The notes under the pieces: model-generated | Seen by the model: the letters and a program-made list of their open reading frames with translations, nothing else | The model's database searches: none | What the model was told of the DNA's origin: nothing | Assembly: GCF_000020325.1 (NCBI RefSeq) | Contig: NC_010730.1 | Location: 422,001-486,000 of the forward strand | Reading direction: 5' to 3' | DNA from: Sulfurihydrogenibium sp. YO3AOP1 | Lineage (GTDB): Bacteria > Aquificota > Aquificia > Aquificales > Hydrogenothermaceae | Length of the DNA stretch: 64,000 nt | Shown: positions 3,587 through 55,958 of the stretch, piece by piece | How the letters are laid out: the number at the start of each line of letters is the position of its first letter | Position numbering within the stretch: position 1 is the first letter of the stretch | Translations under genes and position numbers: made by a program

Positions 3587-4540
3587 TTGTTTAATTTTGA
3601 TAAAGCATATTTTGAAAAAGTAATGTATCAGCATTTAGATAGTAATGTTAATTTCATACTTCAAGTAGGCAAATACATTATAGACAGCGGTGGCAAGAGA
3701 GTTAGACCTTATCTTGTTTTGAAATTTTCTAAAATAATGAAAAATAAAAATGAAGAAAAAGACTATATCTTGGCAGCTGCTTTAGAATATCTTCATACAG
3801 CATCCCTTCTTCATGATGATGTTGTAGATGGCTCACAATTAAGACGCGGAAAGCCTACAGCTAATAGAATTTTTGGAAATGACACAACTGTTTTAACCGG
3901 TGATTATTTGTATGCCAATGCACTTTATCTCTTTTCTATCCATGGCAATATAGATATGATTAAAAACGTAAGCCAAACAGTCAAAAAAATGGCTGAAGGA
4001 CAGCTTTTAGAACTAAAAAAAATTGCTGACTTTGATATAACATTACAAGAGTATTACTCCATCTTAGAAGGAAAAACTGCAGCACTGTTTGGAAGTTGCT
4101 GTTATGTTGGTACAGCACTTGGAACAGATAATGAGACTTTAAAACAAAAAGCTTTTGAGTATGGTTTAAATATCGGTATGGCATTTCAAATTGTAGATGA
4201 TTTATTAGATTACACAGGAAAAGAGGAAAAAACCGGAAAGTCTATAATGAATGATTTAAGAGAGGGAAAAATAACATACCCTTTGATTGCTGTAAGAGAA
4301 AAACTATCTGCAAAAGAGAAAGAATTTATAAAATCAGTTTTGTTAAACAAAAATCCGGATACTGAAGATTTATTAAAAGTTAAAAATATTGTAGAAAGCT
4401 ACGGTGGAATAGAAGAGACTAAACAAAAGGCAAAAGACTTTGTAGATAAAGCAATAGAAAGTTTAAGAGTTTTTGGAAACAGTGAAGATGTTGAGGAATT
4501 GGAAAGTTTAGCTAAATTTATAATTGAAAGAGAAGTGTGA
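3587..4540 (+). CDS. Long-chain polyprenyl diphosphate synthase
   Basis: A 317-residue trans-prenyltransferase that should extend an allylic diphosphate with isopentenyl diphosphate to make the quinone side chain. GGKRVRPYLVLKF is followed by the first aspartate-rich motif HDDVVDGSQLRRGKPTAN (around residue 83) and the second, QIVDDLLDYTG (around residue 206), which bind Mg-diphosphate. The start is TTG at 3587 behind AAAGGAGC. Length and motifs fit the octaprenyl/heptaprenyl group (IspB/HepT-like), and menaquinone-type respiration in this organism makes that role likely. Chain length cannot be set from sequence alone. Confidence 0.9.
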   Translation: MFNFDKAYFEKVMYQHLDSNVNFILQVGKYIIDSGGKRVRPYLVLKFSKIMKNKNEEKDYILAAALEYLHTASLLHDDVVDGSQLRRGKPTANRIFGNDTTVLTGDYLYANALYLFSIHGNIDMIKNVSQTVKKMAEGQLLELKKIADFDITLQEYYSILEGKTAALFGSCCYVGTALGTDNETLKQKAFEYGLNIGMAFQIVDDLLDYTGKEEKTGKSIMNDLREGKITYPLIAVREKLSAKEKEFIKSVLLNKNPDTEDLLKVKNIVESYGGIEETKQKAKDFVDKAIESLRVFGNSEDVEELESLAKFIIEREV

Positions 4541-4552
4541 TATAAGTGAGAA

Positions 4553-4672
4553 TAGAATAGGTGTTGGATTAAGAATTGGCAAATGTTAATTAAGGAGATC
4601 CCTCGGGCTTACATTCTTAGGATGACAAGGAAAGGTAAGCTTACGAAAATTTTTACAACTCTCTCATAAATA
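4553..4672. repeat. Dispersed repeat, copy 2, single-module and diverged
   Basis: The block contains GGAGATCCCTCGGGC, then CTTAGGATGACAAGG and GGTAAGCTTACGAAAATTTT. Read in inverse, it matches the first part of the copy at 20706-20901 (which has AATTTTCGTAAGCTTACC). The second hairpin module is absent. It fills the gap between the polyprenyl synthase gene and panD. Confidence 0.65.
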
Positions 4673-4747
4673 TATGACATTAAATCTTGCATGATTTAAA
4701 AAATTTTGCTAACTTCTTCTGTCAAAAAGTAAAGATAGGAGGCATTG

Positions 4748-5152
4748 ATGTATAGAACATTACTAAAATCTAAGGTTCATAGAATAAAAATAACCGGTGC
4801 AGACTTGCATTATGAAGGAAGTCTTACATTAGATGAAGAAATAATGGAAGCTGCAAATTTAATTCCGTTTGAAAAGATAGAAGTTTATAACGTAAACAAT
4901 GGTCAAAGATTTTCAACATATGTAATCCCTGGAGTTAGATATTCAGGAGAATGCATCTTAAACGGAGCGGCAGCAAGATTAGGTCATTATGGGGATATTA
5001 TAATAATTGCATCGTATGCAGCAGTAAACGAGAAAGATTTAGAAAGCTTCAAAGTAAATCTTGTTTACATAGATGAAAACACAAATACAATCAAAGAAAA
5101 GAAAGAAGTATTGGCATTAAACTCTAAAGTTTTAGCTAAAACTAACGAATAG
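4748..5152 (+). CDS. panD: Aspartate 1-decarboxylase
   Basis: Makes beta-alanine from aspartate for pantothenate and coenzyme A. The 134-residue proenzyme carries the self-cleavage site [11 protein letters not shown] with Gly24-Ser25, where Ser25 becomes the catalytic pyruvoyl group. Other family motifs present are [13 protein letters not shown] and [16 protein letters not shown]. An in-frame TTG at 4745 is possible, but the AGGAGG at 4737-4742 is well spaced only for the ATG at 4748, and PanD proteins normally begin this way. It opens the long forward gene block; the next gene starts 18 bp downstream. Confidence 0.96.
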
Positions 5153-25805: not shown

Positions 25806-28358
25806 TTATTCACAGCTTGGACATATCTTTGCAAGCAACGGGTCAGTAGGACATGCATCTACGTTTCCTGCTTTAACCTTATCAACTATCTCATCACCAT
25901 ATTTTTCTCTTGCCATTCTTTCCAATTCTTCTAAATCTTTATTAACTTGGTCTTTAGCTCTTGCAAGTCCAAAACCTCTTCTTTCTCCTCTCTTGTTTAC
26001 GTTCATTGTGTATTTTTCACCTTTGATAGTTTTGTCTATAAAGCAGTAGTAGGTTGATTTAAGTCCTTTTTCCCAAGCATACATGTAGATGTTTTCCATA
26101 TCATCTCTTAAATCTTCTTCTATGTATAAAGATTTAGAAACAGCTTGGTCTATATACTGTTGGAATGCTGCTGCTATATCTATTTGTCTGTATGGGCTTA
26201 CTTCATATGCTGTTTTGAATAGTCTTTTATCCACTACTCCTTCCAGCTCATCTATATACTGAATACTTCCTTGGTTTGCTTTTATTTTTTCCAGCATCTC
26301 TTCATTCCAGATACCTTTTTCTTCCAACATTTTCATAAGTGGCTTGTTTACTACGATAAATTTGCCTGATAGTGTATCTCTTGAGAAAATATTAGAGAAG
26401 TAGTTGTCTATACTTGAAGAAGTTCCTGCTATGATTGAGATTGATGCTGTTGGTGCTATTGCAAGTAAGACTGCGTTTCTTCTTGGAGGATAGTTATAAG
26501 GGTGAGTAGGTGAGTAGGTGAGTAGGTGAGTAGGTGTTTTTTCGTTAGGATTTAGTTCTTCACTTTTCACTTTCTCACTTTCTCGCTTACTCACTTCATA
26601 ATAGTGCGGGAATGCTCCTCTTTCTTTTGCCAACTCTTCAGATTTTCTATACACTGTTTCTCTCATAAATTTGGCTATCTCTTTTGCAAGTTCTATAGCT
26701 TCATCGCTGTCGTATGGAATTCCAAGATAGATCAATGCTTCATGGAATCCCATCAATCCTATGCCAATAGGTCTTAAGTCCATTGTGTTTTTTCTTGACT
26801 CTTCTGATGGATAAAAGTTTTTATCTAAAATGTTATCAAGTGCAACAACCATTGTTTCAAGTGTATCTTTTAGTTTATCCCAATCGATGGAGTGAGTAGG
26901 TGAATAAGTGAGTAAGTGAGACGTGTTTTTTTCGTTAGGACTTAGCTCTTCACGTTTCACGTCTGACGTCTCACGTTCAACCTTCTTCAAATGTCTTGCT
27001 AAGTTAACAGATGCAAGGGTGCAAACTGCTGTTGACTGAGGTGAGTTTGGTATTGATATTTCTGTGCATAGGTTAGATGAGTTAATTACACTGTATTTAG
27101 GACATGGGTTGTGTCTATTGTGTGCATCTTTGAATGTAAGCCATGGATGTCCTGTCTTTGCAAGTTTGAATAGATATTTTTTATAGAAATCTCTACTGTC
27201 TATCTTTTTCCAAAGCTCTAACTCTCCTCTTTCTGCTTTTTCTATACATTCTTGGTATTTTTTAGCAAACTCTTCTCCGTAGCTTGTTACTAATTCTCTA
27301 CATTCTGCAGGGTCAAATAGATAGATAGGCTCTCCTTCTTTGATTCTTCTCATTATTTCATCCGGCATCCATAGGGCTGTGTTTAAAGAAGGGGTTCTAA
27401 AGTAGGGGTTTCCTGTAGTTTCTCTTAAATCTAAAAATGCTTCTACGTCTAAATGCCAAGGTTGTAAGTACATAACTTGACTACTTCTTCTTCTGCCACC
27501 TTGCTGGATTGCGTTTACGATAGTATCAAAGATTTTTATAAATGGAATTATTCCGCTTGATTTTGCATTTAAAGAATGGATTTTTGACCCTGTAGCTCTA
27601 ATTCTTGTAATATCTGTTCCAACTCCGCCTGCATATTTTGCTAAGAATGCAGTTTCTTTTGCTTTATCCATGATAGACTCGAGAGAATCATCAACTACGT
27701 TTACATAACAGCTTGAATACTGATTTGTAAGAGTTCCTGAGTTAAATAAAGTTGGTGTTGAATGTAAGTATTCAAGATTTGATAGTTTATCGTAGATTTT
27801 TAATATTTCTTCTTCTGTATTTCCTATTCCCATTGCTACTCTCATAAAGAACCACTGCGGCTTTTCTATAGTTTCAAAGTTTCTGTCTTTTGTAAGATAT
27901 CTATCTTTTAACGTTGACAGTCCAAAGTAATCAAGATTGTTATCTCTTGAGTAATCTATTTTAGATTCAAGTAGGTCTATGTCAAAATTTAAAAGCTCCG
28001 GTTTTAGCAATTTTTCGTTTACTGCATAGTTTATGTAATCTTTAAATGAAGAAAATCTCCTTTCTATTCTTCTGTTGATGATTTTCAAAAGCTGTCTTGT
28101 CGCTATCGTGTCATAGATTGAACCTGTCGGAATAAGATGTTCGATAGCTTTTAATACTAAATAGTCTAATTCTTCTGTTGTAACTACTTCTGGAATTTTT
28201 AAGTCAAGTTCTTTTGTAATTTTGAAGACTATTTCGTAATCATCCGGCAGGTCAAGCCCTTCAAGAAGTGCAAATATAGCATCTACAAGCTTTTTCATTT
28301 GAAATTTTTCTTGGGTTCCGTCTCTTTTTACAACAATTCTGTTTTTGTGTCCATTCAT
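25806..28358 (-). CDS. nrdA: Class I ribonucleotide reductase large subunit (R1), with two in-frame insertions
   Basis: Reduces ribonucleoside diphosphates with the radical supplied by NrdB. The 850-residue protein has an N-terminal ATP cone (VVKRDGTQEKFQMKKLVDAI, residues 7-95), the catalytic barrel with SSCYVNVVDDS, NSSNLCTEI and IAPTASISIIAGTS, and the C-terminal redox tail CPSCE. Two related peptides interrupt it, at about residues 459-489 and 587-617. Both read V-K-x-E-E-L-x-P-N-E-K followed by HLLTYSPTH, at places where other R1 proteins have short loops. They look like a mobile palindromic-type element that preserves the frame. The gene is separated from nrdB by a dispersed repeat. Confidence 0.93.
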   Translation of the reverse strand: MNGHKNRIVVKRDGTQEKFQMKKLVDAIFALLEGLDLPDDYEIVFKITKELDLKIPEVVTTEELDYLVLKAIEHLIPTGSIYDTIATRQLLKIINRRIERRFSSFKDYINYAVNEKLLKPELLNFDIDLLESKIDYSRDNNLDYFGLSTLKDRYLTKDRNFETIEKPQWFFMRVAMGIGNTEEEILKIYDKLSNLEYLHSTPTLFNSGTLTNQYSSCYVNVVDDSLESIMDKAKETAFLAKYAGGVGTDITRIRATGSKIHSLNAKSSGIIPFIKIFDTIVNAIQQGGRRRSSQVMYLQPWHLDVEAFLDLRETTGNPYFRTPSLNTALWMPDEIMRRIKEGEPIYLFDPAECRELVTSYGEEFAKKYQECIEKAERGELELWKKIDSRDFYKKYLFKLAKTGHPWLTFKDAHNRHNPCPKYSVINSSNLCTEISIPNSPQSTAVCTLASVNLARHLKKVERETSDVKREELSPNEKNTSHLLTYSPTHSIDWDKLKDTLETMVVALDNILDKNFYPSEESRKNTMDLRPIGIGLMGFHEALIYLGIPYDSDEAIELAKEIAKFMRETVYRKSEELAKERGAFPHYYEVSKRESEKVKSEELNPNEKTPTHLLTYSPTHPYNYPPRRNAVLLAIAPTASISIIAGTSSSIDNYFSNIFSRDTLSGKFIVVNKPLMKMLEEKGIWNEEMLEKIKANQGSIQYIDELEGVVDKRLFKTAYEVSPYRQIDIAAAFQQYIDQAVSKSLYIEEDLRDDMENIYMYAWEKGLKSTYYCFIDKTIKGEKYTMNVNKRGERRGFGLARAKDQVNKDLEELERMAREKYGDEIVDKVKAGNVDACPTDPLLAKICPSCE
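26505..26597 (-). repeat. In-frame inserted element 2 within nrdA, with octanucleotide tandem repeat
   Basis: The plus strand shows GGTGAGTA repeated four and a half times (26511-26546), then GTTTTTTCGTTAGGA and TCACTTTTCAC. The encoded peptide is V-K-S-E-E-L-N-P-N-E-K-T-P followed by THLLTYSPTH. The conserved core is shared with the insertion at 26890-26982. A unit is 8 bp, so only changes of three units keep the frame. Confidence 0.75.
26890..26982 (-). repeat. In-frame inserted element 1 within nrdA
   Basis: Same orientation and same core as the element at 26505-26597 (GTTAGGACTTAGCTCTTCAC on the plus strand against GTTAGGATTTAGTTCTTCAC). Its octanucleotide array is degenerate (GTGAGTAG, GTGAATAA, GTGAGTAA). 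It falls between NLARHLKK and DWDKLKDTLE of R1. Confidence 0.75.
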
Positions 28359-28647: not shown

Positions 28648-29628
28648 TTAAAAATTCGTATACTCAGTTGATGAAACTTCAAAGAAGTTTGTTAATTTTT
28701 TAACGTCTTCTTTCTGTAAGAATTTAAGTGGGTTTTGGTCTATTCCAAACTGTGGGTCAAATCCAAGTTCTATTAATCTTCTATCTGCTATATACTTCAT
28801 ATATCTTTCAAGCTCTCCATAAGAAACACCGAAGATGGTTGTCCCGCCGAATTTAGTTTTTAGATAGTTTAATTCAAGCTCTACAGCATCAATGATAGAT
28901 TGTCTTATGTTTTCAACAAATTGGTAATCATCAACTATCTCAGGGTTTTCTTCAACCATTGTTAAGATGGCTTCTATGCCGTTTTGTAAGTGGAGGCTTT
29001 CATCTATCAAAATAAGCTCTACACCGCTTACTACGTTTTTCATTTTTCCCGTGTCTTTCATAGCAAAGAAGTGTGCAAATGCTGAATAGAAAAATAATCC
29101 TTCTTGAATGATGTTATTTAAAAGTATAGAAGTTAGTATCTGCTTTTTGCCTTCTATCGTGTCTGGGTCTGCTTTTCCGTAAGTTATTCTGTCAACTGCT
29201 CGAACGATTAACTCTTGCTTTTCTTTTAGCAGTTTATCTTCAAGTGTGATGTTGTATATTCTTTTTCTGTCCATATCAAAGGAGTTGAGAATGATTTCGA
29301 AAAAGTCTGAATGAATGTTTTCCATAAACATTTGGGTAGAAAAGCTCATCTTTGCGTATGGGTCTGTTAAAACCGGAAAAAATCCATTTCCAACAACGTT
29401 TTGGACTAATAATTCAGATGATGCAAAGTATCCAACAGCACTGTCAAATAAATCTTTTTCTGTTGGTGAGAGAGATTTATAATCAAGCACGTCTTGTTGA
29501 ATGTTTAACTCCTCCGGAAACCATACGGCTTTTTTCTGCTTAGTGTATAGCTCTTTGAAAATTGGGTATCTTGGATTTTCTGACAATCTGATATTGTCTC
29601 TAACTGATGTTTTTCCTATAAGTGCCAT
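28648..29628 (-). CDS. nrdB: Class I ribonucleotide reductase small subunit (R2) lacking the radical tyrosine
   Basis: A 326-residue ferritin-like protein. Metal ligands align fully with the class Ia enzyme: D62, E103, H106, E176, E210 and H213, with identical spacing (E103/H106; E176 to E210 = 34 residues). At the place of the radical tyrosine (seven residues after E103, MENIHSDFF) there is Phe110. That is the pattern of class Ic R2 (Chlamydia), which uses a Mn/Fe centre instead of a tyrosyl radical. The start is ATG 29628 with GGAGG; an in-frame GTG at 29643 overlaps that site. Two NrdR-type boxes lie directly upstream. Confidence 0.93.
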   Translation of the reverse strand: MALIGKTSVRDNIRLSENPRYPIFKELYTKQKKAVWFPEELNIQQDVLDYKSLSPTEKDLFDSAVGYFASSELLVQNVVGNGFFPVLTDPYAKMSFSTQMFMENIHSDFFEIILNSFDMDRKRIYNITLEDKLLKEKQELIVRAVDRITYGKADPDTIEGKKQILTSILLNNIIQEGLFFYSAFAHFFAMKDTGKMKNVVSGVELILIDESLHLQNGIEAILTMVEENPEIVDDYQFVENIRQSIIDAVELELNYLKTKFGGTTIFGVSYGELERYMKYIADRRLIELGFDPQFGIDQNPLKFLQKEDVKKLTNFFEVSSTEYTNF

Positions 29629-46175: not shown

Positions 46176-48287
46176 ATGTTTATCATCAAAAGAGATGGAC
46201 TGGCTCAAGAATTTATGCCATATAAAATAAAGGATGCTATTGAGAAGGCTTTCAAAAGTGTTAACCAAACATTTGATGAAATAATTTACAACAATGTATT
46301 AACAACTTTAAAACAAAAAGATGTATGGACGGTGGAAGAAATCCAAGATTTAATAGAGAAGGAGCTTTTTAGAGCAGGATATTTCGAAGTTATGCGTTCT
46401 TTCATGCTTTATAGACATACAAGGAAATTACAAAGGGAACATATTTTAGGTTTAAACGATGATACCACTTATATTGATTGTACACAAGCTGTTGAAGAGT
46501 ACATTTACAACAAAGATTGGAGAGTTAATGCAAATTCTAACATGGGATACTCTCATGCTGGTCTTGTAAATAACTTGGCCGGAAAGGTTATTGCGAACTA
46601 TTGGCTTGATAAAGTATATAGCAAAGAAGCTGGTTATGCCCATAGAAATGGTGATATTCATATACATGACCTTGATAATCTTTCTGGATATTGTGCTGGT
46701 TGGAGTTTAAGGCAACTCTTAAACGAGGGCTTTAATGGAGTTAGAGGAAGAGTAGAAAGCAAGCCACCCAAGCACTTTAGGGAAGCTTTAGGTCAAATGG
46801 CAAACTTTCTTGGAACCTTACAATCAGAATGGGCAGGGGCCCAATCGTTTAGCTCATTCGACACATATCTTGCTCCATATGTTTTTAAAGATAAATTATC
46901 ATATAACGATATCAAGAAGGCAATTAGAAGTTTTGTGTACAATTTAAATGTGCCATCAAGATGGGGACAATCACCTTTTACAAATATAACTTTAGATTGG
47001 ACTGTTCCAGAAGATTTGGCGGAGCAATGGCCTACAGTAAATGATAGGCACTTATTTGAAGACATAAATGATGAAGAGCTCATAGAAAAAGCAAAAGAAA
47101 GAGGAGTTGAAAAATTAACAGATTTAAAATATAAACATTTCCAAAAAGAAATGGATCTAATCAATAAAGCCTTTTTTGAAGTTATGACGGAAGGTGATAA
47201 ATCAGGACAGCCTTTTACATTTCCAATACCGACAGTTAACATTACTGAAGATTTTAATTGGTATGGAGAAAATACTGATATACTTTTTGAAAATACAGCA
47301 AAATTTGGTACTGCATACTTCCAAAACTTTATAGGAAGTCAGTATATTATTGACGAAAATGGAGAAAAAATAAAAAATCCTGATGCTTTTCAACCAAACA
47401 TGGTTAGAAGTATGTGCTGCAGATTACAGCTTGATCTAAGGGAGTTGCTAAAGAGAGGGAATGGACTATTTGGAAGTGCGGAAATGACAGGTTCAATAGG
47501 AGTTGTAACTTTAAACATGGCAAGATTAGGATACAGGTTTAAAGGGAATAAAGAAGGGTTTTATAGAGAGTTAGACAGACTTTTAGATATAGCAAAAGAT
47601 ACTTTAGAAAGGAAAAGAAAATTCGTTCAAGATATGTATGATAGAGGGCTCTATCCTTATACAAAAAGATATCTTCATTCTTTTAAAAATCATTTTTCAA
47701 CAATAGGCGTAAATGGAATGAATGAAATGATAAGAAACTTTACTAACGATGCTTACGATATTACAACGCAAGAAGGAATAGAATTTGCAAAAGAAGTTTT
47801 GGATTACATTAGAGAAAAAATTGTTAAATTCCAAGAAGAAACGGGAAATCTCTACAATCTTGAAGCAACTCCTGCAGAAGGTGCAACATACAGGTTTGCT
47901 AAAGAAGATAAAAAAAGATATCCCGATATAATTACAGCGGGGGAAGGAGAAAATATTTATTACACAAACAGTTCTCAAGTTCCCGCATATTATTCCGACG
48001 ATCCATTTGAAGTATTAACATTGCAAGATGATTTACAATGTAAATATACTGGAGGAACAGTACTGCACATATATTTAAAAGAAGCTATAGCTAATAAAGA
48101 AATATGCAGGAATTTAGTTAGAAAAATTATAACAAACTTTAAACTACCATACATTACTATAACACCGTTAATAACAGTATGCCCTAAACACGGAAGATTG
48201 GATAAAAATTATGAATACTGCCCTAAATGTGATGAAGAATTAATTGAAAAATTTATAAAGGAGGTGCAAGAACATGAAAACATTTAA
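46176..48287 (+). CDS. nrdD: Anaerobic (class III) ribonucleotide reductase, catalytic part without the glycyl-radical tail
   Basis: Reduces ribonucleoside triphosphates in the absence of oxygen. The 703-residue protein has an N-terminal ATP cone (IIKRDGLAQEFMPYKIKDAI), YAHRNGDIHIHDLDNLSGYC, and SQVPAYYSDDPFEVLTLQDD near the active site. It ends with the zinc region CPKHG and CPKCDEEL and then stops. The glycyl-radical motif (RVxGY) that normally follows is absent; it is encoded by the next gene, which has its own ribosome site and overlaps by 14 bp. The gene is under paired NrdR boxes and a Fnr-type site. Confidence 0.92.
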   Translation: MFIIKRDGLAQEFMPYKIKDAIEKAFKSVNQTFDEIIYNNVLTTLKQKDVWTVEEIQDLIEKELFRAGYFEVMRSFMLYRHTRKLQREHILGLNDDTTYIDCTQAVEEYIYNKDWRVNANSNMGYSHAGLVNNLAGKVIANYWLDKVYSKEAGYAHRNGDIHIHDLDNLSGYCAGWSLRQLLNEGFNGVRGRVESKPPKHFREALGQMANFLGTLQSEWAGAQSFSSFDTYLAPYVFKDKLSYNDIKKAIRSFVYNLNVPSRWGQSPFTNITLDWTVPEDLAEQWPTVNDRHLFEDINDEELIEKAKERGVEKLTDLKYKHFQKEMDLINKAFFEVMTEGDKSGQPFTFPIPTVNITEDFNWYGENTDILFENTAKFGTAYFQNFIGSQYIIDENGEKIKNPDAFQPNMVRSMCCRLQLDLRELLKRGNGLFGSAEMTGSIGVVTLNMARLGYRFKGNKEGFYRELDRLLDIAKDTLERKRKFVQDMYDRGLYPYTKRYLHSFKNHFSTIGVNGMNEMIRNFTNDAYDITTQEGIEFAKEVLDYIREKIVKFQEETGNLYNLEATPAEGATYRFAKEDKKRYPDIITAGEGENIYYTNSSQVPAYYSDDPFEVLTLQDDLQCKYTGGTVLHIYLKEAIANKEICRNLVRKIITNFKLPYITITPLITVCPKHGRLDKNYEYCPKCDEELIEKFIKEVQEHENI

Positions 48288-48536: not shown

Positions 48537-49220
48537 ATGAGTAAAATTTATGACCTAACACCATTTACAATATTGGATTATCCTAACAAAATTGCTGCAA
48601 TAATATGGTTCTCAAAATGTAATATGAGATGCCCCTATTGCTACAATCCAGAAATTGTATTTGAATCAGAAGGAAAAGATTTATCAGAGAATAAGGTTAT
48701 TTCATTTTTAAGAAAAAGAGTTGGGCTTTTAGAAGGGGTTGTTTTGTGTGGTGGAGAGCCTACTCTTTATAAAGATTTAATCGGTTTTGCCAAGAAGATA
48801 AAGGATTTAGGCTTCTTAATAAAACTTGATACCAATGGGTCAAACCCTTACGTTGTAAACGTATTAATCAAAAATCATTTAATTGATTACGTGGCTCTTG
48901 ATTTTAAAGCTCCATTTGGAAAATATTTTTCTATAACAAAGTTTAACAACATAGACAAAATAAAAGATAGCTTAGAAATTCTTGTAAATTCAGACATTGA
49001 TTATGAAATTAGAACAACTGTTCATCCAGATTTAATCGATGAAAATGATATAAATGAAATCATTTCCTATTTAGAAATGATAAATTTTAAAAAAACTTAT
49101 TTTATACAGAAATTTATCTTTTCTAAAACTATAGGGGATTTAAAAAATCCTGTAAGAGATATAGATAAATCAAAAATAAAAAAGACAAATAAATTTAAAA
49201 TAGGATTTAGAAATTTTTAG
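48537..49220 (+). CDS. nrdG: Radical SAM activase of anaerobic ribonucleotide reductase
   Basis: Generates the glycyl radical on the reductase. The 227-residue protein has the radical SAM cluster CNMRCPYC preceded by IAAIIWFSK, then GVVLCGGEPTLYKDL, the SAM-binding GGEP motif, and IKLDTNGSNP. This is the NrdG2/anaerobic RNR activating type. Convergent with cobA: the two coding ends overlap by 4 bp. It probably shares the nrdD promoter. Confidence 0.92.
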   Translation: MSKIYDLTPFTILDYPNKIAAIIWFSKCNMRCPYCYNPEIVFESEGKDLSENKVISFLRKRVGLLEGVVLCGGEPTLYKDLIGFAKKIKDLGFLIKLDTNGSNPYVVNVLIKNHLIDYVALDFKAPFGKYFSITKFNNIDKIKDSLEILVNSDIDYEIRTTVHPDLIDENDINEIISYLEMINFKKTYFIQKFIFSKTIGDLKNPVRDIDKSKIKKTNKFKIGFRNF

Positions 49221-54297: not shown

Positions 54298-55958
54298 TAG
54301 TATATATCCTTTTGAGTATTAATTACATTAAAGTGTCCTGTCGGGGTTCTTACCCAATCACCTTCAATTGCTTGTTTTAGCTTCAATGTTTTATCATCAT
54401 AAATGAGAATGGCAGAAGGTATAACCTTATTACCCCAAATCGCAACCCATACCTCATCTCCTTTATCATTAAACTCTAAATGAACAGGTCCTCTTGGTTT
54501 TATTTCTTTACCATTTACAACCTTAGGCTGTAGATACTTTTCTGGAACCTTTAATTCATTAATAACTTCAAGTTTTTCTTTATCAATTACATAAACTTTA
54601 CTTTGTGCCTCTTTATCAGGGTTTAATGGTCTGTCTGCATACATATATTTAGAATTTGGATGTGTTTTAACGAATAGGTTTCCACCACCTTCCCCAGGTA
54701 ATGTTATTTTTTTAACCACTTTCCAAGCATATTCTGGATGACCTTTTGGATCAGTTCCAATACAAGCTATAGTATTTTCTCCTAAATGACCAGTACACCA
54801 GATAGGTCCATACTTAGGATGGTCTATGTTTGCACCTCTGCCCGGGTGTGGTTTAACTCCTGTTTCAACAATTGCAGCGACTTTACCCTCTTCTGTATCA
54901 ACCGCCACAACTTTATTTCTCATATTTGCCGCAACTAAGAAATATCTTTTTGATAAATCCCATCCTCCATCATGAAGAAATCTCTCTGCATTGAGCTGTT
55001 TAATTTTTGGATTTAAAGGATCAGAATAATCATACAACCATACTTGTCCAGCTTCTTTTATATTGATAACCCATTCTGGAGCATGGTGCGAAGCAACAAT
55101 AGATGCTACCCTTGCTTCTCTTATAAACTCATTAGGCTTATCGTATGCATAATTGGATGTTGAAACTATTTTTAACGGTTCTAATGTTTGGCCGTCAAGA
55201 GTTACTATTGCAGGAGGCCAATAGCATCCAACTACAGCGTATTTATCAAGATAATCTCCTTTTTTCCCTTTGTACTTACTTGTATCAACACTACGAGCAT
55301 CATTACAAGTTTTAACCTCTGCTACTTTATCCGGTTTTTCCATCCATAGGTCGATAAGAGTAACACGTCCATCCCTTCCGATAGAATACATATATCTTCC
55401 GGATGCGGACATTCTCAGAATATGAACAGCAAAACCAGTATTTACAATATTAACCAACTCCTTAGTGTCACCATCTATAATGGCAACTTTACCAACATCT
55501 CTCAATACAACACCCATATAGTTTTTCCAGTTTCTATTTGTCATTGGTTTTGTAGGTCTTTTATCAACTGGCACATAAACTTTCCATGTTTCCTTTATCT
55601 TTTCTAAGGATGTTTCTGGAGGTGGTGGCGGATCATTTTGAATAAACTTTGCCATCAATAATGTTTCTTCTGGTGTTAGTTCTCCAGAAGCTCCCCAGTC
55701 TGGCATACCACCTGCCGTTCCATAATGGATAATCGCTTTAAGCGCCTCCGTTCCCATTTTCCTTGTTTTCTCTGGTTCTAAGTTAGGTCCTGTTGCACCT
55801 TTTCTCAGCATACCATGACAGCCAGCACACCTATCAAAATAAATCTGCGAAGCTTTTTGCATCTCTTCTGGAGAAAGTTTCCAGTCTGGCTCTTGTGCAT
55901 AAGATATGGCCGTTAATGCTAATGATGTTGAAATTGTTGTTAAAAGTAGCTTTTTCAT
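54297..55958 (-). CDS. nirS: Cytochrome cd1 nitrite reductase
   Basis: Reduces nitrite to NO in the periplasm. The 553-residue precursor has a signal peptide (to about ISYAQE), heme c site CAGCH (about 44-48), GGMPDWG with the c-domain Met region, and the d1 propeller with AVHILRMSASGRYMYSIGRDG, a d1-ligand and active-site His region (ASHHAPEWVINIKE) and GLPGEGGG-like GEGGGNLFVKTHPNS. It starts at ATG 55958 with GGAGGG; the in-frame GTG three bases earlier is less likely. It follows the porin gene by 21 bp. Confidence 0.96.
   Translation of the reverse strand: MKKLLLTTISTSLALTAISYAQEPDWKLSPEEMQKASQIYFDRCAGCHGMLRKGATGPNLEPEKTRKMGTEALKAIIHYGTAGGMPDWGASGELTPEETLLMAKFIQNDPPPPPETSLEKIKETWKVYVPVDKRPTKPMTNRNWKNYMGVVLRDVGKVAIIDGDTKELVNIVNTGFAVHILRMSASGRYMYSIGRDGRVTLIDLWMEKPDKVAEVKTCNDARSVDTSKYKGKKGDYLDKYAVVGCYWPPAIVTLDGQTLEPLKIVSTSNYAYDKPNEFIREARVASIVASHHAPEWVINIKEAGQVWLYDYSDPLNPKIKQLNAERFLHDGGWDLSKRYFLVAANMRNKVVAVDTEEGKVAAIVETGVKPHPGRGANIDHPKYGPIWCTGHLGENTIACIGTDPKGHPEYAWKVVKKITLPGEGGGNLFVKTHPNSKYMYADRPLNPDKEAQSKVYVIDKEKLEVINELKVPEKYLQPKVVNGKEIKPRGPVHLEFNDKGDEVWVAIWGNKVIPSAILIYDDKTLKLKQAIEGDWVRTPTGHFNVINTQKDIY

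Follow-up and report, generated by a model that had tools for sequence, protein, structure and literature searches.

The stretch of DNA considered here, referred to as the window, comprises 64,000 nucleotides of Sulfurihydrogenibium sp. YO3AOP1 (positions 422001-486000 of a genome consisting of a single contig of 1,838,442 bases). On the minus strand of the window lies nrdB, encoding the sole class I ribonucleotide reductase R2 subunit of this genome, upstream of a complete gene encoding the partner subunit, nrdA. These genes, together with the codons of those R2 residues discussed below, are listed here by their positions in the window.

25806..28358, minus strand: nrdA, partner R1, 850 amino acids, with ATP cone, C217, C431, C446, Y770-Y771 and C-terminal CPSCE (Pfam, motif positions, alignment)
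28648..29628, minus strand: nrdB, class I R2, 326 amino acids, Phe/Glu type (PF00268, Ribonuc_red_sm, E 3.7e-62; closest solved structures S. erythraea R2 and C. trachomatis R2c)
29521..29523, minus strand: codon of W36, electron relay (E. coli W48, C. trachomatis W51; invariant)
29443..29445, minus strand: codon of D62, previously proposed as a ligand, not a ligand (unconserved)
29413..29415, minus strand: codon of E72, true first metal ligand (C. trachomatis E89; alignments)
29323..29325, minus strand: codon of M102, at a second-sphere position occupied by Glu in known class Ic (C. trachomatis E119; alignment)
29320..29322, minus strand: codon of ligand E103 (alignment)
29311..29313, minus strand: codon of ligand H106 (alignment)
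29299..29301, minus strand: codon of F110, radical-Tyr position (E. coli Y122, C. trachomatis F127; translation, alignments)
29101..29103, minus strand: codon of ligand E176 (alignment)
29014..29016, minus strand: codon of L205, site of the C. trachomatis Y222 activation relay (alignment)
29002..29004, minus strand: codon of D209, relay (E. coli D237, C. trachomatis D226; invariant)
28999..29001, minus strand: codon of ligand E210 (alignment)
28990..28992, minus strand: codon of ligand H213 (alignment)
28660..28662, minus strand: codon of Y323, C-terminal tail Tyr (E. coli Y356; invariant)

The R2 protein contains a single Trp, namely W36, and no Cys. It is accepted at cut-off by none of the NCBIfam models, with the best score being that of NF007186 (209.5 bits, as compared to a cut-off of 237). 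No match to PF07972 (NrdI) was found anywhere in the genome. The window also encodes class III NrdD and NrdG (46176-48287 and 48537-49220, respectively), NapA, NapH and NosZ, as well as a cd1 nitrite reductase (54315-55532, corresponding to genome positions 476315-477532). Besides the class I enzyme, the genome holds two nrdD genes of differing kinds, one being that found in the window and the other lying at genome positions 1352471-1354267.

Two in-frame insertions of some 25-30 amino acids each (KREELSPNEKNTSHLLTYSPTHS / KSEELNPNEKTPTHLLTYSPTHP) were noted in nrdA (minus strand, window positions 26502-26594 and 26892-26960). Both are copies of a repeat dispersed in the genome (43 matches at E values up to 0.1, mostly short) and both are absent from the NrdA of a sister genome (G101) and of other aligned relatives. 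Among the few other copies of the repeat that were inspected, most were intergenic.

Radical site and metal ligands

Translation of the region around the second metal ligand reads E103-N-I-H106-S-D-F-F110. As originally predicted, Phe110 thus lies seven residues past E103 in place of the radical Tyr, with a phmmer comparison against the PDB aligning F110 with F127 and E72 with E89 of the C. trachomatis R2. The Phe codon had been placed at 29298-29301, a span correct as to the site yet one base too long. Because F110 is invariant in all 39 sequences of the clade to which this R2 belongs, its presence cannot be ascribed to chance.

Of the six metal ligands proposed earlier, E103, H106, E176, E210 and H213 do match ligand positions of the Chlamydia R2 in the alignments. 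The remaining residue, D62, was ruled out as first ligand by alignment and by poor conservation, with position 62 being Glu in three genomes of the same family and having no fixed identity among other R2s. D62 precedes E72 by 10 residues (~15 Å of helix, or about three turns) in the same predicted helix (residues 55-86), and every alignment matches E72, rather than D62, to E89 of Chlamydia and to the Asp found in Tyr-type R2s. The ligand set predicted from these comparisons is E72/E103/H106/E176/E210/H213. Replacement of D62 by E72 strengthens the comparison with class Ic, since the first ligand is Glu in class Ic and Asp in classes Ia and Ib (PMC4118035, PMC8463856).

Coupling of the first ligand and the radical site

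The relation between the two sites was considered in an alignment of 240 R2s drawn from Aquificota genomes, GTDB species genomes, plasmids, a phage and viral contigs, with one row (L087) being set aside from the count and read separately. In the 239 readable rows, each R2 with an Asp ligand presented Tyr at the radical site (97/97), whereas no R2 with a Glu ligand did so (142/142 non-Tyr, comprising 109 Phe, 19 Val and 14 Ile). In a 69-row tree from which both columns were left out, the ligand/radical pair changed state four times and a single clade of all Glu/non-Tyr R2s was rejected (p-AU 0.0016), although this was a quick tree with several long branches. Given these four changes and the rejection of a single clade, the two sites seem, on the basis of the sequences aligned, to change jointly and to have undergone such joint change on more than one occasion. 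A sign test of coupled change could draw on 2-4 independent pairs, too few to reach significance.

Glu-ligand R2s whose radical-Tyr site is Val (19) or Ile (14) were encoded by 33 viral contigs and, in the two loci read, adjoin nrdA. They appear to correspond to the R2s termed 'Ic-like' in a 2026 preprint (PMC12918982).

Distribution

In Hydrogenothermaceae, the family to which Sulfurihydrogenibium belongs, 31 genomes were read as encoding E72/F110, with the R2s being 88-98% identical to the protein considered here (in one partial case, 92% over 209 residues). A sole genome of the family (G077, locus L048 on contig C246) lacks a Phe-type R2, its R2 being instead Asp/Tyr and similar to that of E. 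coli, which reflects either replacement or a contaminating contig (~6.6 kb). R2s read in three other families, namely f2 (14 read), f5 (16 read) and f3 (5 read), were Asp/Tyr; f2 is presumably Aquificaceae and f5 Desulfurobacteriaceae. A second Glu/Phe lineage in Aquificota was found in genus g14 of f2 (L063-L066), with R2s of a different lineage (~31% identity). A single origin of the Phe R2s of Hydrogenothermaceae and g14 was rejected (p-AU 1.6e-5).

Among the matches listed, a Sulfurihydrogenibium MAG encodes an R2 of 94% identity, while the closest R2s from outside the phylum were those of KSB1 (74%), Gracilimonas (71%) and Aliifodinibius (70%), followed by one MAG at 53% and then a fall to 33-37% identity.

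The row read separately, from bacterium MAG-33 (L087, positions 3906-4880), is an R2 of the same clade (53%) containing in-frame TGA codons. Two of these stand at sites that are Gly in relatives (one in LIGK, the other ahead of SELLV), fitting the use of TGA as Gly (code 25). The source is perhaps a Gracilibacteria or Absconditabacteria genome. In this R2, a Tyr is found one residue ahead of the F110 position. In genus g26 (G123-G126), no R2 was found, and the NrdD frames contain one or two stops (TGA/TAA) in all four genomes.

Predicted structure

An AlphaFold model generated from 32 sequences was of mean pLDDT 89.6, with residues 308-326 being of low confidence. When the model was compared with solved structures using Foldseek and VIA-align, the seven best matches were all class Ic R2s (Z 40.6-41.4). 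Those of C. trachomatis (1syy, 4d8f and 4m1i) scored 40.8-41.4 (4m1i, 41.4; 1syy, 40.8) and that of S. erythraea (6y2n) scored 40.6, as compared to 37.4 for E. coli and 36.1 for A. aeolicus.

The C. trachomatis protein shares with the R2 considered here the Phe radical site, the Glu first ligand, the other five ligands and the W/D/Y relay. At the same time, the two are only ~28-31% identical, lie on separate branches of the tree and differ in that M102 replaces E119, L205 replaces Y222 and HSDFF is found where the C. trachomatis R2 presents HTHTF. The S. erythraea R2, likewise Glu/Phe and the best PDB match both by sequence (E 8.2e-37) and by Foldseek, retains equivalents of C. trachomatis E119 and Y222, unlike the present protein. 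The class Ia R2 of A. aeolicus (7ail, 7aik), from the same phylum and of the same fold (Z ~36), differs in having a radical Tyr134 and an Asp97 ligand, with EPR revealing a tyrosyl radical (PMC8772380). The class Id R2 of Flavobacterium johnsoniae resembles the present R2 in its Glu first ligand and metal-based oxidant (the latter being predicted here), yet has kept the Tyr, along with a Lys close to the metals (PMC8463856), where F110 and Q76 are found here. Finally, the viral 'Ic-like' R2s (PMC12918982) also lack the radical Tyr and, in the viral contigs read, present Glu as first ligand, but have Val or Ile rather than Phe and retain the E119 and Y222 equivalents.

Class assignment

According to published marks, Phe/Glu denotes class Ic, Tyr/Asp denotes classes Ia and Ib and Tyr/Glu denotes class Id (PMC8463856). 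The alignment with class Ia, Ic and Id R2s that had been suggested as a check returned the class Ic signature, with the Ia and Id residues being absent. The class Ic likeness initially proposed is thus borne out by the Phe at position 110 and the Glu at position 72, such that a tyrosine-free R2 of class Ic type is well supported. Also present are the other five ligands and the equivalents of W51, D226 and the C-terminal Tyr.

The other classes were rejected. Class Ia is defined by an Asp first ligand and a radical Tyr, where E72 and F110 were found. Class Ib relies on a radical Tyr and an NrdI partner, as opposed to F110 and a genome with no PF07972 match. Class Id combines the Tyr/Glu pair with a Lys that follows the first ligand by four residues, where F110 and Q76 were found. 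Class Ie has lost carboxylate ligands, all of which are present here.

Two residues set this R2 apart from the Chlamydia-type clade (NrdBzc). The second-sphere residue that precedes the second ligand is Glu in the RNRdb class Ic group (C. trachomatis E119; PMC6370689) and in 103/103 other Glu-ligand R2s, as opposed to Met in 38 and Val in one of the 39 sequences of the present clade, M102 being the residue in the protein considered here. Y222, reported as conserved among R2c proteins, was shown to act with W51 in mediating the one-electron step by which the cofactor is activated (PMC4118035). This site, L205 here, is Leu in 39/39 sequences of the clade, whereas Trp, Tyr or Phe is found in 103/103 other Glu-ligand R2s. 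The R2 moreover falls outside the supported Chlamydia group in the tree, itself a quick one with long branches. This R2 fits the Phe/Glu definition of class Ic, with which it very probably shares its working principle, while lying outside the Chlamydia-type clade as described. The activation route of the clade probably differs from that of known class Ic R2s. A tyrosine-free R2 with a Glu ligand is already known; it is the two replaced accessory residues that are new. In the literature searched, which did not extend to the 2010 R2c survey (Hogbom), no paper was found to mention class Ic alongside Sulfurihydrogenibium or Persephonella.

Integrity of the R2/NrdA pair

The nrdB gene is not decayed, being carried by 31 genomes of the family, with the relay residues and NrdA intact. 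In eight genomes of the family, each at least 96% complete, matches to PF02867 were found only on the contig encoding the Phe R2, and no match to NrdD above cut-off was obtained. The Phe R2 and NrdA are therefore the only ribonucleotide reductase found in these eight genomes, which renders a decayed or non-reductase R2 very unlikely for the clade.

In one of these genomes (G099, locus L244), nrdA contains an intein-like insertion directly before the catalytic Cys (between NSSNL and C), and long nrdA frames (~1140-1640 amino acids) in other genomes of the family suggest further insertions of this sort.

Proposed mechanism

Given the Phe site, the Glu first ligand, the five other ligands, the relay comprising W36, D209 and Y323, and the complete NrdA, it is quite likely that the protein considered here is a working class I R2 in which the one-electron oxidant would be held by the dimetal site itself, as is the principle of class Ic, rather than by a tyrosine. 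The coupling seen across 239 R2s, the class Ic identity of the seven top-ranked structures, the presence of F110 in 39/39 sequences and the absence of an NrdI match favor an oxidant that is very probably metal-centered and of the Mn/Fe type. The replacement by M102 and L205 of residues kept elsewhere, the position of the clade apart from the Chlamydia group and the lack of acceptance by any NCBIfam model would speak against operation by the class Ic principle.

In the proposed scheme, O2 or peroxide would oxidize a Mn/Fe (or, less surely, an Fe/Fe or Mn/Mn) center to a high-valent state. This center would then draw an electron via W36 and Y323, and from there via NrdA Y771/Y770, to generate a thiyl radical on C431. 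With Leu occupying the Y222 site, entry of the activation electron through an aromatic residue of the Y222 type would be impossible in this clade, such that entry would occur by W36 alone or by another route.

Alternative explanations

A possible but clearly less likely arrangement is that the oxidant is metal-based yet other than Mn(IV)/Fe(III), for instance, the Mn(III)/Mn(IV) center of class Id or a high-valent di-iron center. The second sphere (M102 and L205) is indeed unlike that of known class Ic R2s, and Mn/Fe, Mn/Mn and BMM di-iron sites share a ligand set, meaning that the metals cannot be read from sequence (PMC4118035). Still, Phe/Glu is the signature of class Ic (PMC8463856), and class Id, the Mn/Mn case, retains the Tyr and Lys that are replaced here by F110 and Q76.

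That Phe represents an adaptation to NO released by the organism's own denitrification, as first suggested for this R2, now appears improbable. The idea was previously proposed for the R2c of Chlamydia (PMC4118035) and for a cyanophage R2 (PMC6370689), and napA, napH, nosZ and the cd1 nitrite reductase gene all lie in the same window. Nitrite reductases were surveyed across 136 Aquificota genomes using PF02239 (cd1) and TIGR02376 (NirK), with no genome exceeding the cut-off for NirK. The raw 2x2 table of nirS and R2 type leans weakly in favor of the idea (26/17 vs 20/32; Fisher p 0.04), although the genomes are not independent and some were assigned an R2 type by family rather than by reading the sequence. 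Among the 24 Hydrogenothermaceae genomes at least 95% complete and with an R2 match of the Phe type, however, cd1 was detected in 14 and not in 10, with all 10 of the latter having been read as Glu/Phe, while eight f2 genomes with cd1 were read as Asp/Tyr. The link is thus not supported, since almost all of the family carries the Phe R2 irrespective of nirS and nirS-positive Aquificaceae have a Tyr R2; R2 type tracks family rather than nirS.

It is more doubtful still that a tyrosyl radical forms on another residue near the ligand helices, such as Y181 or Y67, in place of Y122. Y67 lies five residues ahead of ligand E72 and is found in 39/39 sequences of the clade, and Y181 lies five residues past E176. 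Yet Tyr is also present at position 67 in 29 other R2s and is common at position 181 among R2s whose normal radical Tyr is in place, and in all sequences it is the Glu ligand that accompanies the absent radical Tyr.

Lastly, although R2lox is itself among the Mn/Fe proteins that lack the tyrosine (PMC4118035), an oxidase akin to R2lox, or an R2 in decay, can be dismissed as exceedingly unlikely in light of the C-terminal Y323 and the adjacent complete nrdA, where R2lox has neither a C-terminal Tyr nor an R1 partner, and of the finding of this nrdA/nrdB pair as the only ribonucleotide reductase in eight relatives. In addition, Asn171 occupies the site of the cross-link Tyr of R2lox, which precedes the third Glu ligand by five residues, and F180 is present where R2lox has Ala.

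Implications

To our knowledge, what is understood of Mn/Fe class Ic R2 chemistry rests almost entirely on one protein, that of Chlamydia. The present homolog, of thermophilic origin and with two accessory residues replaced in nature, offers a direct test of whether a metal-centered oxidant depends on the Y222 relay and the second-sphere Glu. As a tentative and rather unlikely extension, the clade comprising the R2s of Hydrogenothermaceae, Balneolota and KSB1 might constitute a separate subclass of metal-oxidant R2s, activated without a Y222-type relay, with a changed second sphere and perhaps a metal pair other than Mn/Fe, and providing certain thermophiles with their only ribonucleotide reductase. 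Within Aquificota, the distribution of nirS argues against NO as the explanation for the Phe. Those genomes in which the Phe R2 belongs to the only reductase found imply that a tyrosine-free design can support all DNA synthesis.
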